Origin: Sporocytophaga myxococcoides DSM 11118 | GTDB taxonomy: Bacteria > Bacteroidota > Bacteroidia > Cytophagales > Cytophagaceae | Length of the DNA stretch: 64,000 bases | Assembly (NCBI RefSeq): GCF_000426725.1 | Contig: NZ_AUFX01000003.1 | Location: 682,001 to 746,000 of the forward strand | Direction of reading: 5' to 3' | Shown here: in pieces, positions 8,044 through 25,063 of the stretch | Numbering within the stretch: the first letter of the stretch is position 1 | Layout: each line of letters begins with the position of its first letter | Made by a program: the position numbers and the translations under genes | The notes under the pieces: generated by a model | What the model was told of the DNA's origin: nothing | What the model saw: the letters and a program-made list of their open reading frames with translations, nothing else | Database searches by the model: none

Positions 8044-11000
8044 TTATTTCTTAATAACCTTTACAGATTCAGAACTTCCATCCTTATACTTAACAGTAAC
8101 TGCATAAATTCCTGCAGAGAACTCTTTTCCAAATTCGACAACCTTACCTTTCTCTACTTCACTTTGAGTGAAAGTAATATGGCCTGATGCATCGGTAACT
8201 GTTATTTGAGCCACTGATTTACCTGGCTTAATAGTAAACAGTTCTTCTGAAGGGTTCGGTGCTATAACCAAAGCGGCTGTTTCCTCTTCATGACCATCAA
8301 CTTTTAATGAAGTACAAACAGTTATATTCTTACAGAATTGCTTATAGTAAGGAGCTCCGCTATAATTAACTCCCACACAGAATTGTCCTCCAGTAAAGCT
8401 AGATCCATATAGGAGGTTAACTTTATATGGCTGACCGCTTACAGGTGTTATACTCTGAACAGAAGTGTTAGCATACCAGCTATAGTTTGTCGCTCCCACT
8501 GTATTAACAGAATTAAGTTCTAGCTGTGCAGAACCATTTACAGTACCACAATCTGGACCGATAATATCAGCCGTACTTGTTCCGCTTACAGTTATATTGA
8601 CAAGTGAAGAAGTTGTGCTAGCACTGGAATTATCATAAGCAATTGCTTTCAGCGTATAAGCTCCAGCTGCAACATTCGTCCAGCTATAGCTATATGGAGA
8701 TGTCAAATCTTCACCAAGTTTTGTAGTACCTTGGTAAAACTCAACTTTTGAAATGCTACCGTCGCTATCAGATGCATTGGCATTGATTGTTACTGAAGCT
8801 GGAGCTGTAAATGTTGCATTGTTCAATGGAGCAGTAACACTTACAGTCGGTGCAACATTTCCTGAAGAAACAGTAATATTGATCAACGATGAAGTCGTAC
8901 TTGCAGAAGCATTATCATAAGCAATTGCTTTAAGTGTATAAGCCCCAGCTGCTACACTTGTCCAGCTATAGCTATATGGAGATGTCAAATCTTCACCAAG
9001 TTTGGTAGTACCTTGGTAAAACTCAACTTTTGAAATGCTACCGTCGCTATCAGATGCATTGGCATTGATTGTTACTGAAGCTGGAGCTGTAAATGTTGCA
9101 TTGTTCAATGGAGCAGTAATACTTACAGTCGGTGCAACATTTCCTGAAGAAACAGTAATATTGATCAATGATGACGTAGTACTTGCAGAAGCGTTATCAT
9201 AAGCAATTGCTTTCAGCGTATAAGTTCCGAATGCGACACTTGTCCAGCTGTAGCTATATGGAGAAGTTAAATCTTCACCAAGTTTTGTAGTACCTTGGTA
9301 AAACTCCACTTTTGAGATACTGCCGTCACTATCGGATGCATTGGCATTGATTGTAACTGATGCTGGCGCTGTAAACGTCGCATTGTTCAATGGTGCTGTA
9401 ATACTTACAGTTGGTGCAACATTTCCTGAAGAAACAGTAATATTGATCAATGATGACGTAGTACTTGCCCCTGAATTATCAAATGCCACCGCTTTTAGGA
9501 CATAAGCCCCTGCTGTTACATTTGTCCAGCTGTAAGAGTATGGAGAAGTTAAGTCTTCACCAAGCTTAGTCGTTCCCTGATAGAACTCAACCTTTGTAAT
9601 ACTGCCATCGCTGTCAGCAGCAGTTGCATTGATTGTTACGGAAGCTGGAGCAGTATACGTCGCATTATTCAATGGTGCTGTAATGCTCACTGTAGGAGGA
9701 ACTCCTGGAAGTACTCTAAACAGACTAGCGGCAGGAATAAGTTGTTTGGCAATCGCTGAACTTTCATAATAAACATTGATTGACTCATCGCCACCTTGCT
9801 CAAAGAAATTCACAGTGATGGCATGCTTACCTGTTTTCAGAGCAACTACTCCTGATGCATGTGTTCCGGCACCATGTAGCCCGTCATTATCTACAACAAG
9901 TTCATTCCCAATATACAATCTGCTTCCGTCATCTGAGTCAGTATAAAAGGTATAAAGACCATCTGCAGGAACATTTACAAAACCTTTAAAGCTAAATGCA
10001 AAGTTATCGTCTCTGTTTCTTGGACTGAGGTCAAAGTTAGTTACTGTTCCGGTCTCAGCAGCCGTAAGAGCACTGAAATTCGGAAGGTTCGACCAGCTGC
10101 CTTCATAATAAGCATAATCCAATCCAGACAAAGTGTTTGTCGGATTTTCAGGATTTCTAAGATCAAGAACTTTAACTGCAATCGCCTGAGAAGCACCTAC
10201 AACTCCAAGGTTGTCTGTAGCAGCAGCCACGATATTGAAACTTCCTGATGCAACATTTGTAAGCGTTAATGTATATGGACTGGTTAGATCTTCGCCTACC
10301 TTAACTCCATCCTTATAAAACTCTACTTTTGCGATTGAGCCATCAGCATCTGTAGCAGTAACATTTACAGTGATGTTTGAAGCCGCAAGTACAATTGACT
10401 TGGAAGCAGGAGAAGTGATGGAAACTACTGGAATTTTATTGGTAAAATCCATTGGCGAAAGTCTGCTTGCAGGAATCGGTCTTTCAAATTCTCCTGTCGG
10501 CAATTGCCATCCATAGGATAAATTATCATCACCATCACCTTCTTTTTGCAAGGCCTCTATATAATATTTCTGGCCAGCTACAAGGTTAATAGTAGCAGAT
10601 TCCTGAGTCGGATATCTGAACCAGTCTCTCAGACCTGTAGTTTTTTCAGCATATGCAATTCTGACTTTGGTTGCAGGACTTGTGCTGGAGCTTAGCCATA
10701 ATTCTGTGCTTTCATCGCCTCCAATCCAAAACTTATATGCACCGGTATAAGGAGCACAGATATAACCTCTTTGACGTACACCAAAATTGTTAGCCTGATT
10801 TACTACTTCTTCCACAGCAGTCACGTTGGTTTGTGAAGTTGGAGTTGTAGATACAGGAATCAAATCTACTGATTTACCTTCAACTGATGCCCAATATTCT
10901 CTCGTTATTGAGCCAGTTCCTGTACAGGCAATAGCATCCGGATTTCTGAAAAGTTCAGTTGTCGGAATTACCTGCTTGGTTATGCCAGGACCAGAATAGC

Positions 11001-21405: not shown

Positions 21406-21692
21406 TTACACTTCAATCTGTCTGGTGACAGTGATGTTGATGGTATTGGAAAATTCCCCCACCTGAGCACTCTTCAGCTTGAAGATTCCTTTGTAAGACC
21501 AGATTGCGTATATGTCCCTGTTGGTAAAGGATGATTGTCTACATAGTCACGAGTGGAATCATTGACAAGGAAAACAAACCCTTTGCCATCTTTGCGGTCT
21601 ACATAGATGTCAATAGAGTCTGCAGGGCCTTTCTTCCACTTAATAATCGGACGGTGAGCATCAAGTCCCCCACCTAGAGAAATTTTGGACAT
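21406..21692 (-). pseudogene. Decayed 3' fragment of the 235-residue family gene, copy 1
   Basis: Matches the last about 95 codons of the intact gene at 23598-24305 (GGLDAHRP, KWKKG, DSIDIYVDRKDGKGFVFLVND, DYVDNHPLPTGT). One base is missing near 21510 (GATTGCGTATATG here, GACTGCAGTATCTG in the intact copy), which breaks the frame before the conserved end. The 5' part is gone and is replaced by the VOC promoter region. Confidence 0.85.
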
Positions 21693-21716
21693 TAAAGAAA
21701 AAAACTATACTATACC

Positions 21717-21751
21717 TGACATACAGTTGTCACAATGCCATTTTATTTTTG
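21717..21751 (+). promoter_or_regulatory. Promoter and candidate operator of VOC gene 1
   Basis: TATTTTTG at 21744-21751 matches the Bacteroidota -7 consensus TAnnTTTG, 27 nt before the ATG. TGACA-N6-TGTCA at 21717-21732 forms an inverted repeat just upstream, placed to block the -33 region. The whole block is repeated before VOC gene 2. Confidence 0.6.
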
Positions 21752-21778
21752 TGCTATCATTAATTAAAACAAAAGAAA

Positions 21779-22183
21779 ATGAGTAAGACAAATTTAGTAT
21801 CATTAAGAATAATTACTGCTGACATTAAGCGTTTAGTGAAGTTTTTTGAGGAAGTCACAGAAACAAAAGCTAAGTGGGCAACAGAGGACTTTGCAGAGGT
21901 AAAATCTGAGTCTTTCACTTTGGCAATTGGAAGTACACGAACATTAGCATTCTTTGGAGAAGGAGTTGCTCAATCTGCGGCTAATAAAAGTATTATTATA
22001 GAGTTCCTTGTTGAGAACGTAGATGATGATTACGAAAAAATTAAAAATTTAACAAACGAAATTGTTCAGAAACCAACAACAATGCCTTGGGGTAATCGTT
22101 CGTTATTGTTTCGCGACCCTGACGGGAATTTAATAAATTTTTTTACGCCAGTTAGTCTAGAAGCTAAAGAGAAATTTGCATAA
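21779..22183 (+). CDS. VOC (glyoxalase/bleomycin-resistance) family protein, copy 1
   Basis: 134 residues. Vicinal-oxygen-chelate fold: beta-alpha-beta units start at LVSLRIITADIKRLVKFFEEVTETKAKWA and close with the hallmark MPWGNRSLLFRDPDGNLINFF. Members bind a metal and a small electrophile or antibiotic, as in glyoxalase I or fosfomycin- and bleomycin-resistance proteins; the substrate here is unknown. It is about 94% identical to the copy at 22830 (eight changes by eye: positions 4, 14, 25, 57, 72, 84, 87 and 127). Both copies are intact, while the gene fragments between them have decayed. Confidence 0.9.
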   Translation: MSKTNLVSLRIITADIKRLVKFFEEVTETKAKWATEDFAEVKSESFTLAIGSTRTLAFFGEGVAQSAANKSIIIEFLVENVDDDYEKIKNLTNEIVQKPTTMPWGNRSLLFRDPDGNLINFFTPVSLEAKEKFA

Positions 22184-22245
22184 AGAATAAGCCCCGCCGC
22201 TAACAGCAGTTTTTAGAAATTCCCGTGGTGTCAGGTCTTTCGCTC

Positions 22246-22302
22246 CAATAGTCCTCGTTTATTCAACGAGGATTTCCGAGATTAGCGATTGTATCGCTAT
22301 TC
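22246..22302. repeat. Two-hairpin repeat at the duplication unit border
   Basis: CCTCGTTtattcAACGAGG then TAGCGATtgtATCGCTA. It marks the border of the about 1.05-kb duplicated unit together with the copy at 23423-23480. Confidence 0.8.
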
Positions 22303-22435
22303 ATTAACTTTAAAATAAAGGTGTTGTCCACCAGGTCTCATACCTGGACTTTTCCCTCCCCCCAAAAAACAAAAACCACCAAGGCTATAAGCACCCTGGT
22401 GGTTCGGATCAATTCAAACAAACAAAAGCTCCCTC

Positions 22436-22745
22436 CTACACCTCAATCTGTCTGGTGACAGTGATGTTGATGGTGTTTGAAAATTCACCCACCTGAGCAC
22501 TCTTCAGCTTGAAGATTCCTTTGTAAGACCAGACTGCAGTATCTGTCCCTGTTGGTAAAGGATGGTTGTCTACATAGTCACGAGTGGCATCATTGACAAG
22601 GAAAACAAACCCTTTGCCATCTTTGCGGTCCACATAGATGTCGATAGAACCATTTGATAATCGGACGATGAGCATCAAGTCTCCCGCCTATTTCAGGGTT
22701 CACAGTCATCCTGTTTAATGCCACTAAAAGAAATTTTGGACACTA
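22436..22745 (-). pseudogene. Decayed 3' fragment of the 235-residue family gene, copy 2
   Basis: Same family as 21406-21692. The frame is intact at the C-terminal end (TDTAVWSYKGIFKLKSAQVGEFSNTINITVTRQIEV) but broken near 22645 by loss of about 17 bases relative to the intact gene (after the codons for DSIDIYVDRK read in reverse). It keeps about 50 nt more of the 5' side than copy 1, then changes abruptly to the VOC upstream sequence near 22733. Confidence 0.85.
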
Positions 22746-22767
22746 AAGAAAAAAACTATACTATACC

Positions 22768-22802
22768 TGACATACAGTTGTCACTATGCCATTTTATTTT
22801 TG
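22768..22802 (+). promoter_or_regulatory. Promoter and candidate operator of VOC gene 2
   Basis: Same TGACA-N6-TGTCA inverted repeat (22768-22783) and TATTTTTG -7 element (22795-22802) as VOC gene 1, 27 nt before the ATG. Confidence 0.6.
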
Positions 22803-22829
22803 TGCTATCATTAATTTAAACCAAAAGAA

Positions 22830-23234
22830 ATGAGTAAGAAAAATTTAGTATCATTAAGAATAATTACTTCTGACATTAAGCGTTTAGTGAAGTTTTTTGA
22901 AAAAGTCACAGAAACAAAAGCTAAGTGGGCAACAGAGGACTTTGCAGAAGTAAAATCGGAGTCTTTCACTTTGGCAATTGGAAGTACACGAACATTAACA
23001 TTCTTTGGAGAAGGTGTTGCTCAATCTGCGGCTAATAAAAGTACTATTATAGAGTTTCTTGTTGAGAACGTAGATGATGAATACGAAAGAATTAAAAATT
23101 TAACAAACGAAATTGTTCAGAAACCGACAACTATGCCTTGGGGTAATCGTTCGTTGTTGTTTCGCGACCCTGACGGGAATTTAATAAATTTTTTTACACC
23201 AGTTAGTCAAGAAGCTAAAGAGAAATTTGCATAA
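22830..23234 (+). CDS. VOC (glyoxalase/bleomycin-resistance) family protein, copy 2
   Basis: 134 residues, a close paralogue of 21779-22183 at a distance of exactly 1051 nt start to start. All fold landmarks are kept (LVSLRIITSDIKRLVKFFEKV, GNRSLLFRDPDGNLINFF). Most of the eight differences are conservative, which suggests both copies have been under selection since duplication. Extra dosage of a detoxifying or resistance protein is a plausible reason for keeping two. The copy is followed by a MITE-like remnant with a long hairpin. Confidence 0.9.
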   Translation: MSKKNLVSLRIITSDIKRLVKFFEKVTETKAKWATEDFAEVKSESFTLAIGSTRTLTFFGEGVAQSAANKSTIIEFLVENVDDEYERIKNLTNEIVQKPTTMPWGNRSLLFRDPDGNLINFFTPVSQEAKEKFA

Positions 23235-23286
23235 AGAATAAGCCCAGCCGTTAATAGCGGTTTTCCCGTGGTGTCAGGTCTTTCGA

Positions 23287-23400
23287 CCATAGCCGTCAAC
23301 TTAGTGACTACATGAAGAGATAAGCAACAGTTTGAGCAAGAGCAAGAGATCTTTTAATAAATACAGAAAGGGTTTCTTGCTCTTGCTCAAACTGTTGCTT
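23287..23400. repeat. MITE-like remnant with a perfect 26-bp hairpin
   Basis: Begins with the same 21 nt (CCATAGCCGTCAACTTAGTGA, given as 17 + 4 shared bases) as the complete element at 27961-28143. Two perfect 26-nt arms (23322-23347 and 23375-23400) face each other across 27 nt. The right terminal repeat is not found, so the element is truncated. Confidence 0.75.
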
Positions 23401-23422
23401 GTTTTTTCTTTCAAAGAGAATC

Positions 23423-23480
23423 CAATAGTCCTCGTTTATTTAACGAGGATTCCCGAGAATAGCGATTGTATCGCTATTTC
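23423..23480. repeat. Two-hairpin repeat, third good copy
   Basis: CCTCGTT..AACGAGG and TAGCGAT..ATCGCTA, followed by the terminator of the intact 235-residue gene. Confidence 0.8.
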
Positions 23481-23538
23481 ATTAACAACAAAATATAAAA
23501 TTCACTGACAGCCTTTATATACCCCCAAAAACAAAACC

Positions 23539-23566
23539 ACCAAAGCCTATAAGCACCCTGGTGGTT
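23539..23566 (-). terminator. Terminator of the intact 235-residue gene
   Basis: ACCACCAAAG..CCCTGGTGGT hairpin with a T-rich tract on the minus strand; third copy of this terminator. Confidence 0.8.
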
Positions 23567-23597
23567 CGGATCAATTCAAACAAGCAAAAGCTCCCTC

Positions 23598-24305
23598 CTA
23601 CACCTCAATCTGTCTGGTGACAGTGATGTTGATGGTGTTTGAAAATTCACCTACCTGAGCACTCTTCAGCTTGAAGATTCCTTTGTAAGACCAGACTGCA
23701 GTATCTGTCCCTGTTGGTAAAGGATGGTTGTCTACATAGTCACGAGAGGAATCATTGACAAGGAAAACAAACCCTTTGCCATCTTTGCGGTCCACATAGA
23801 TGTCGATAGAGTCTGCAGCCCCTTTCTTCCATTTGATAAGAGGACGGTGCGCATCAAGCCCTCCTCCTATTTGAGGTTTCATGGTCATCTTGTCTAGTGC
23901 AGAATCTGCAGCAATAATCATGAGATCCCTGCCAATAGCATCGTTGTAATTCCTATGATTTTTGATTCTCTGCACCATTTTTCCCACTCTCTTAAAGATG
24001 CCGGGCTTTACAAGCAAAGGCTGTGTAAGAACAGGTGTTGGGGCAGGATAAGAAATCTCTCCTCCTCCTTCCTGGCCATCATACATCAAATTTTTGAAGC
24101 CGATTTGCTGAGATGCTACACTCTTTGCTATTTCCGCAGCTTCAAGTGAATAGATGGCAACAAGAGCATCATTGGAAACGCTGAGAACTTCATCTGGAAG
24201 TATGCCTACATTTTCTGCATGACCTGCAAGTTTAATGGAAAAGTTTTTGAGCCAAATAGCTCTGTCTTTATCTGCCCTTGGCAGATATCCCGTGTTGGTG
24301 GACAT
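23598..24305 (-). CDS. 235-residue protein of a Bacteroidota family, function unknown
   Basis: No signal peptide or membrane segment. The N-terminal about 85 residues are helical (YLPRADKDRAIWLKNFSIKLAGHAENVGILPDEVLSVSNDALVAIYSLEAAE). A proline-rich linker follows, then a C-terminal beta domain (KWKKGAADSIDIYVDRKDGKGFVFLVNDSSRDYVDNHPL), resembling a fibronectin- or Ig-type fold. Proteins starting with this Y.PR.D....W..NF pattern are common in Bacteroidota and, as far as I know, uncharacterised. It is the intact parent of the two decayed fragments at 21406 and 22436. The 21-bp phased palindrome array starts about 115 nt upstream of its start. Confidence 0.75.
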   Translation of the reverse strand: MSTNTGYLPRADKDRAIWLKNFSIKLAGHAENVGILPDEVLSVSNDALVAIYSLEAAEIAKSVASQQIGFKNLMYDGQEGGGEISYPAPTPVLTQPLLVKPGIFKRVGKMVQRIKNHRNYNDAIGRDLMIIAADSALDKMTMKPQIGGGLDAHRPLIKWKKGAADSIDIYVDRKDGKGFVFLVNDSSRDYVDNHPLPTGTDTAVWSYKGIFKLKSAQVGEFSNTINITVTRQIEV

Positions 24306-24419
24306 AGTTGGTTAACTGGTTTAAAAGATTCTATTAAAAAAATAACTGGCTCAATATTAGAACATTAATTTATTCGACGCAACATTTTTTTTCAAAAATA
24401 TCCTCCGCAAAGACTCGTG

Positions 24420-24764
24420 CTTAAGCACGAATGGTGCGTACTTAAGCTCCGTTGCCTCGTGCTTAAGCCTCAAAGCTCCGTGCTTAAGCACCAGAGTTCC
24501 GAGCTTAAGCACGAAGCTTCCGTAATTACTCACAGAATGAGCGGCAATATTAACATCACTTCCGAAAGTACTCACGCAGCATTCGGGAGTACTCACAGCC
24601 TCATCGTGAGCACTCCCGATGGGGACGGAAGCACTTCCGCAGGTCCTGTGCTTATGCACGGTCACTTTTTGCTTAAGCACGGACAATATTTGCTTAAGCA
24701 CAGGCACTCTGAACTTAAGCAAAAAAAGCCCGTGAGTAAGCCAGATATAGTCCGGAATAAGCTC
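24420..24764. repeat. 21-bp phased array of short palindromes, about 17 units
   Basis: Hexamers sit at an exact 21-nt step with no slip across 17 units. CTTAAG occurs at 24420, 24441, 24462, 24483, 24504, 24672, 24693 and 24714, and CTTATG at 24651. The middle and last units carry AGTACT (24567, 24588), AATATT (24546), or near-palindromes ATTACT, AGCACT, AGTAAG and AATAAG. CAC often follows, giving a 14-bp palindrome CGTGCTTAAGCACG in unit 1. Both strands can be read as heptads starting Leu-Lys because CTTAAG is its own complement. That makes coding status unclear; I read it as a non-coding array. Confidence 0.85.
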
Positions 24765-24830
24765 TATTAGTTCAGGAAAAGAAATTTTGAATGCGGGCTT
24801 ATGAATATTGCTACCGTCATATACGCTCCT

Positions 24831-25063
24831 CGGTCTGTGGCTCACAGACCGAAACCTTTCCACCATGATCAAAGTAGTCTAATTAACTCTCCTTTTTTCA
24901 TGAGTGTCATTTTTTTATTTTTGATGTAATAAGCTTAACCAATTATGGAAAAATTCTTTAAAGAAAGACGAATCTCTATATAACTTTTTCCTTTATTATA
25001 GATTATGGAGATTATTTTGGATAACTGTTATGGATAGATTCCGGTCTGTGTGCCAAAGACCGG
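24831..25063. repeat. REP-bounded element, copy 1
   Basis: About 233 nt. It starts with the palindrome CGGTCTGTG..CACAGACCG and ends with CCGGTCTGTG..AAGACCGG, so the two ends are inverted versions of one hairpin. The interior (AAACCTTTCCACCATGATCA, then an AT-rich stretch to GATTATGGAGATTATTTTGG) is repeated at 27736-28158 with few changes. Confidence 0.85.

Follow-up and report, generated by a model that had tools for sequence, protein, structure and literature searches.

A candidate family of mobile, 21-bp-phased half-site arrays in the intergenic DNA of one bacterial genus

An intergenic array of seventeen 21-bp units in the genome of Sporocytophaga myxococcoides DSM 11118 belongs to a family of such arrays that, as found here, is confined to one genus among 59 genomes. 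With moderate confidence, we read these arrays as a genus-specific, mobile and non-coding intergenic family of half-sites, similar to REP/BIME elements and probably recognized as duplex DNA by a dimeric protein. Their near-strict phasing at two helical turns, their two arm types, their presence and absence between close species and the lack of an adjacent RAYT gene make it possible to ask directly if selection acts on helical phase and what protein recognizes it. A literature search, conducted mostly outside subscription journals, found no description of this array family.

The window, i.e. the whole stretch of 64,000 nucleotides that was analyzed, carries the array at 24408–24764, where 17 units of 21 bp follow one another without an insertion or deletion (hexamer starts at 24420 + 21k, k = 0 to 16):

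24408..24764, no strand: window array, with hexamer centres at 24422.5 + 21k and arms mostly GTG..CAC (from the sequence, a palindrome-chain scan and the arm types)
24765..24810, no strand: degenerate tail of the array, ending in ATGAATATTG, which is common to the end of array C7a in the same genome (from pairwise alignment and comparison of the ends)

An earlier note on this DNA had described the exact 21-nt step, and both direct reading and a shuffle-tested scan confirmed it. The scan uses no consensus but chains palindromes at 20–22 nt, with dinucleotide-shuffled windows as the control; the window array reaches 24 in it, and the best of 20 shuffles 6. Direct reading also reproduced the hexamer tally of that note (CTTAAG eight times, AGTACT twice, AATATT once), to which the remaining six hexamers add ATTACT, AGCACT (twice), CTTATG, AGTAAG and AATAAG, and the extension of the first unit to CGTGCTTAAGCACG is present in the sequence. 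The proposed extent of 24420–24764 was borne out as well, except that the degenerate tail, which runs on to about 24810, had been missed. Since the mean identity between the units is 0.47, TRF picks up the array as three fragments only.

A BLAST search of the source genome (G000) with the window array brought up more arrays at C7:257.5k and C19:677k, and pattern matches led to kin arrays in G001 and G002, which, like G003, are other genomes of the same genus. The sequence model used thereafter, R1, was made from 67 overlapping three-unit stretches of seven arrays, after exclusion of those spanning a phase shift. Applied to 10 genomes, it yielded five array loci in G000 (at seven places), four in G001, five in G002 and one in G003, with up to about 20 units per array. 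Matches at E <= 0.01 were obtained in four of the 59 genomes, the source genome included, all of one genus; weak single matches (E 0.09–0.8, one of them in G005) were left out of these counts. Furthermore, the pattern GCTTAAGCACGAAGCTTC, searched with at most one mismatch in 395 Bacteroidota genomes, matched in the source genome only. After merging by flanking genes, the 15 array sites correspond to 11 distinct loci, namely the window, A, B, C, C7a, C19a, C6, C14, C22b, C55 and G003:C4. All 11 are intergenic relative to the longer open reading frames, with some arrays overlapped by small frames (76–171 aa) that the units themselves make. The flanking genes, which appear ordinary in a Pfam scan, are convergent at three loci (B, C and C6), divergent at two (A and C14) and co-directional at five (window, C7a, C19a, C22b and G003:C4); locus C55 is cut by a contig end.

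The anatomy of the unit was derived from seventeen regions with 221 scored units and 204 steps, B-right and C22b having given no chain. The 21-nt phase, which the earlier note had proposed to look for in related genomes, is kept in 180 of these 204 steps, though 20-nt steps (22 cases) recur in most arrays, i.e. in 13 of the 15 regions that hold at least two chained units; steps of 22 and 19 nt occur once each. Conservation over the 221 units is mirror-symmetric and peaks at ±4. It is at odds with the claim that the bases between the hexamers vary freely, since positions ±7 to ±9 still carry 0.38–0.51 bit, and only ±10 to ±12 are nearly free (0.07–0.19 bit). As a description, 'phased sites' therefore holds, given the prevailing step, the symmetry and the gaps of whole units between orthologues. 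Dyad complementarity amounts to 0.66 at the centre, a value inflated by the choice of unit centres by palindromicity, to 0.36–0.38 at ±10.5 bp and to 0.15–0.34 elsewhere, so that a weaker second dyad lies 10.5 bp off the centre and dyads repeat every 10.5 bp.

Within the units, the commoner half-site combinations are CTT/AAG (45), CTT/ACT (16), CTT/TAG (16) and AGT/ACT (12), the rarer ones CTA/AAG (10), CTA/TAG (10) and AGT/AAG (9). The window array, C7a and C19a have arms of type GTG..CAC, and A, C14 and C have arms of type AGG..CCT; the two types differ on both sides of the dyad and coexist in G000. Most arrays consist of palindromic units, whereas C22b (G002, L193:6754-6870), a short array, has one CTTAAG unit followed by AGTAAG and AGCAAG units and thus consists mostly of AGT/AAG mixtures. 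Its units of type GGGAGT/AAGCAC are nearly identical, with non-palindromic mixed half-sites that all point one way, and it carries right arms of the CAC type, in contrast to the CCT type of the other G002 arrays. C22b is perhaps a recent expansion. Palindromes are thus usual yet not obligatory in the array units.

Orthologous arrays can be aligned and differ mainly by exactly one 21-nt unit. The locus A arrays of G002 and G000 align without a gap, while gaps add up to 21 nt in A of G001, in each half of B and in C; the locus C orthologues also differ by one single-nucleotide gap, and further small gaps lie in the flanks. Such whole-unit gaps would be expected of a neutral minisatellite, the strongest rival to a mobile half-site array, in which a founder unit was duplicated by slippage, palindromes were made and re-made by strand switching, the period was simply inherited and no protein reads the units. 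This explanation is possible, if on balance doubtful. It would also account for the fact that units of the same arm type resemble each other to the same degree across arrays and inside a single one, and for the near-identical, non-palindromic units of C22b, which resemble a young expansion. It sits less well with the phase, which is held in spite of a unit identity of only about 45 percent across the family, and with the divergence between orthologues, which amounts to 81/751 in the core, 98/558 in the linkers and 95/668 in the flanks, in comparisons that share G002. The core diverges less than the linker (p = 0.0005); its difference from the flanks is not significant (p = 0.053), and at locus B the core has diverged no less than its own flanks. 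If real, this constraint on the arrays would act on the half-site sequence rather than on pairing. Compensatory changes, whose absence again suits neutrality, number 0 in 369 pairs of the orthologous arrays, with 51 pairs formed in one species only; together with the mixed half-sites of C22b, this weakens a pure palindrome story.

Slippage alone, however, leaves an array at a new site unexplained. In G000, C7a sits between an SprF-like gene (PF11751) and a gene of 952 residues that matches Sortilin/BNR; in G001, G002 and G003, the orthologous spacer is clean, 123–124 bp long and free of any array. Since the identity of the SprF-like gene to its G000 copy ranks G002 (94 percent) above G001 (91 percent) and G003 (84 percent), a single gain of C7a in G000 is simpler than three losses. 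Because C7a is missing from the spacers of three congeners, we infer from this one clean empty site that arrays probably move, reaching new places as a whole. At C19a, the sole orthologue (G003) has other DNA where the array stands. One terminus, ATTRCTCCTGGAAGATTCAG, is shared by A and C7a and variable in the A copy of G000 itself, and the other, ATGAATATTG, is shared by the window array and C7a. No target-site duplication is readable at C7a, where the spacer is too diverged, and the arrays yielded neither a transposase nor two complete ends; no known transposase gene family was linked to them. In G003, where the C7a site is empty, the neighbouring SprF-like gene is split into two frames (G003:C1:570877-571744, L294).

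Two related insertion sequence (IS) ends, TGTCTCGTCC.. and TGTGTCGTCC.., which we read as the two ends of one IS element, adjoin four of the array ends in G000:

L184:8035, L185:7736, L186:7354, L187:350, L195:7326, L196:7013 and L249-L263: IS ends

The element, which has a transposase-like ORF, splits two G000 arrays with 3-bp duplications (ACC at A, AGC at B), and is putatively IS3-like; its first ORF matches HTH_Tnp_1 at 25.2 bits, just above the cut-off of 24.1. Of the 22 IS-end junctions placed (six in G000, 11 in G002, one in G001 and four in G003), seven fall inside or border on an array or a pair resembling one, so that its preference for arrays is partial, and we rejected it as the mover of the arrays. 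Six of the remaining 15 junctions adjoin, by eye, another intergenic palindrome, the IS standing just outside such palindromes in, e.g., L250, L252, L253, L254 and L258. Palindromic units are known targets of some IS3-family elements, such as IS1397 and ISKpn1 (PMC1525189).

In our reading of the arrays as a mobile half-site family, the 21-bp unit spans two helical turns and presents two half-sites that face each other across a variable centre, GTGCTT/AAGCAC, GGGAGT/ACTCCC or mixtures of these. Arrays would change length by whole 21-bp units and would probably be copied as a whole to new intergenic places, C7a being an instance. The putative reader of the half-sites may be a symmetric, dimeric protein that contacts duplex DNA on one helical face, and it could be an array-copying enzyme or a nucleoid protein. 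Recognition by proteins of both kinds is known for REP/BIME elements.

A broader and more speculative reading, which we consider rather unlikely, is that of a new class of mobile DNA, made of phased half-sites that are copied whole and change by two-turn units, with arm types matching different cooperatively binding dimeric proteins. Its further members would be L024:1524-1734, L064:901-1128 and L127:3153-3468, arrays built alike around a different consensus, from other Bacteroidota bins. In a palindrome scan and a closer look at 11 CTTAAG loci, these three kept one or two strong in-phase palindromes other than CTTAAG, and L053 had none; since they were chosen via the CTTAAG pattern, they are subject to ascertainment bias and a lead only. 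Three CTTAAG at 21-nt steps occur at no fewer than 117 loci in the named genomes scanned, and the contexts among the matches listed look like unrelated tandem or coding repeats. That period-21 CTTAAG tandem repeats are common in unrelated genomes, among these matches, is again in line with a neutral minisatellite. Outside the genus, in 59 genomes, CTTAAG pairs at 21 nt number 29 in forward orientation and 35 with the reversed control pattern; there is therefore no general enrichment of such pairs.

Improbable, by comparison with these, is an array of hairpins that works as RNA or single-stranded DNA, as gene-end REPs do in termination or mRNA stabilization, and that is perhaps copied by a hairpin-reading enzyme. 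While the arrays fold at z-scores of -6.3 to -10.6 relative to shuffles, permuted unit orders fold equally well in five of six arrays, and we rejected a global fold; G002:C44 reached 0.02, on one strand. Likewise, the halves of a unit match significantly better than permuted halves at ±2 and ±3, but two unit classes could cause this covariation, which depends on centres set by eye or by the best palindrome in the kin arrays and is not confirmed by orthologues. That three of the 11 loci lie between convergent genes speaks for such hairpins, but two lie between divergent ones, and mixed half-sites break the stems. G-T (99) and A-C (108) mismatches are in balance and thus show no strand bias, which, with the lack of compensatory changes, argues against this reading. 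In addition, R1 had no match in 49,963 bases around 17 RAYT-like hits (PF01797) of the four same-genus genomes, and no Rfam family emerged: at gathering thresholds, six array loci gave tRNAs only, and the window region gave mir-126 only (E = 1, at 20.7 bits and thus below the cut-off of 47.2).

The earlier note had further tied the array to the gene that adjoins it:

23598..24305, minus strand: intact 235-residue gene (ORF), adjoining the array and outside the repeat family
24306..24407, minus strand: leader between the array and this gene, resembling the leader of the gene's relative at locus A (from alignment to L185 and L192)

This gene, for which a Pfam scan gave nothing over the cut-off, has 20 matches in the four genomes of the genus and none in eight others. 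The tie holds at the window and at locus A, where the array also stands directly upstream of a relative of the gene (67–69 percent identical) behind a common leader, but fails at the other nine loci, which lack an adjoining family member. An operator array of this gene is thus very unlikely, all the more as arrays are missing next to several family members and three array loci lie between convergent genes.

Two open frames run through the window array:

24417..24770, plus strand: open frame made by the units, 117 codons, judged not a gene
24357..24872, minus strand: opposite-strand open frame, 171 codons, judged not a gene

They would suit an overlapping coding repeat, i.e. a protein of Leu-Lys heptads read from either strand or from both, but this origin can be practically dismissed, since a frame stays open across the whole array in just two of the 14 arrays tested (window and C55), 20-nt steps break the frames in 13 of 15 regions, and neither frame has a Pfam match over the cut-off. 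Among relatives, in which the earlier note had proposed to follow the heptads, an open frame is not generally kept, and Leu-Lys appears on both strands because CTTAAG is self-complementary and in register, which is no evidence of coding. By sequence, the arrays are thus judged non-coding; where they span such arrays, long open frames result from the self-complementarity of the units and are not genes.

The best-known palindromic intergenic repeats are those of proteobacteria, where they are tied to RAYT transposases. The arrays appear REP/BIME-like in place and dispersal: both are intergenic, dispersed and at times in regular clusters, and are chosen by some insertion sequences (PMC1525189), and most of the arrays, though not C22b, are also palindromic. 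They differ from REPs in copy number and from BIMEs in orientation, as REPs are usually present in more than 100 copies per genome and BIMEs alternate their orientation (PMC2817692), whereas the arrays occupy one to five loci per genome, with units that stand head-to-tail at 21 nt, lack a GTAG head in their consensus and mostly have no orientation because they are near-palindromes. Like REPINs, they would be mobile palindromic DNA, small and non-autonomous, of which one genome can have several types; unlike these, they have a 21-bp step, compared with spacings of 72 and 112 bp in the REP tandem arrays of P. fluorescens SBW25 (PMC3116915), and do not lie near the 17 RAYT-like hits. With MITEs and other transposon-derived elements, they have in common presence and absence at an orthologous site (C7a, one site), and with bacterial minisatellites or VNTRs the gain and loss of tandem units as wholes, the latter differing in that the arrays have dyad symmetry, two symmetric arm types and dispersal to new loci. 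Finally, iteron and operator arrays place tandem sites on one DNA face, and the sites described here are likewise about two helical turns apart; unlike iterons, however, they are scattered over several loci, are made of units only some 45 percent identical and have no replication or partition gene among the Pfam-scanned neighbours.

Some further observations concern the surroundings of the arrays. Glyoxalase-fold genes (PF00903) lie less than 2 kb from five of the 11 loci, namely the window, C19a (L199), C6 (L189), C in G001 (L190) and C55 (L196), compared with an expectation of about 0.18 loci at 22–25 genes of this kind in each genome (post hoc binomial, 5e-7); locus C in G002 has no such gene nearby. 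In the window, 21474-24305 is a duplicated segment in which glyoxalase genes (21779-22183 and 22830-23234) alternate with copies of the 235-residue gene, partial ones and the intact one. A 282-bp tandem repeat with 3.7 copies and 88 percent matches (TRF) occupies 8629-9684. A second family of intergenic palindromes, GGTCTGTG..CACAGACC, occurs at 24832, 25043, 27631, 27737 and 27948; it flanks the window array and recurs around 27.6–27.9 kb, where a 108-bp stretch is tandemly doubled.
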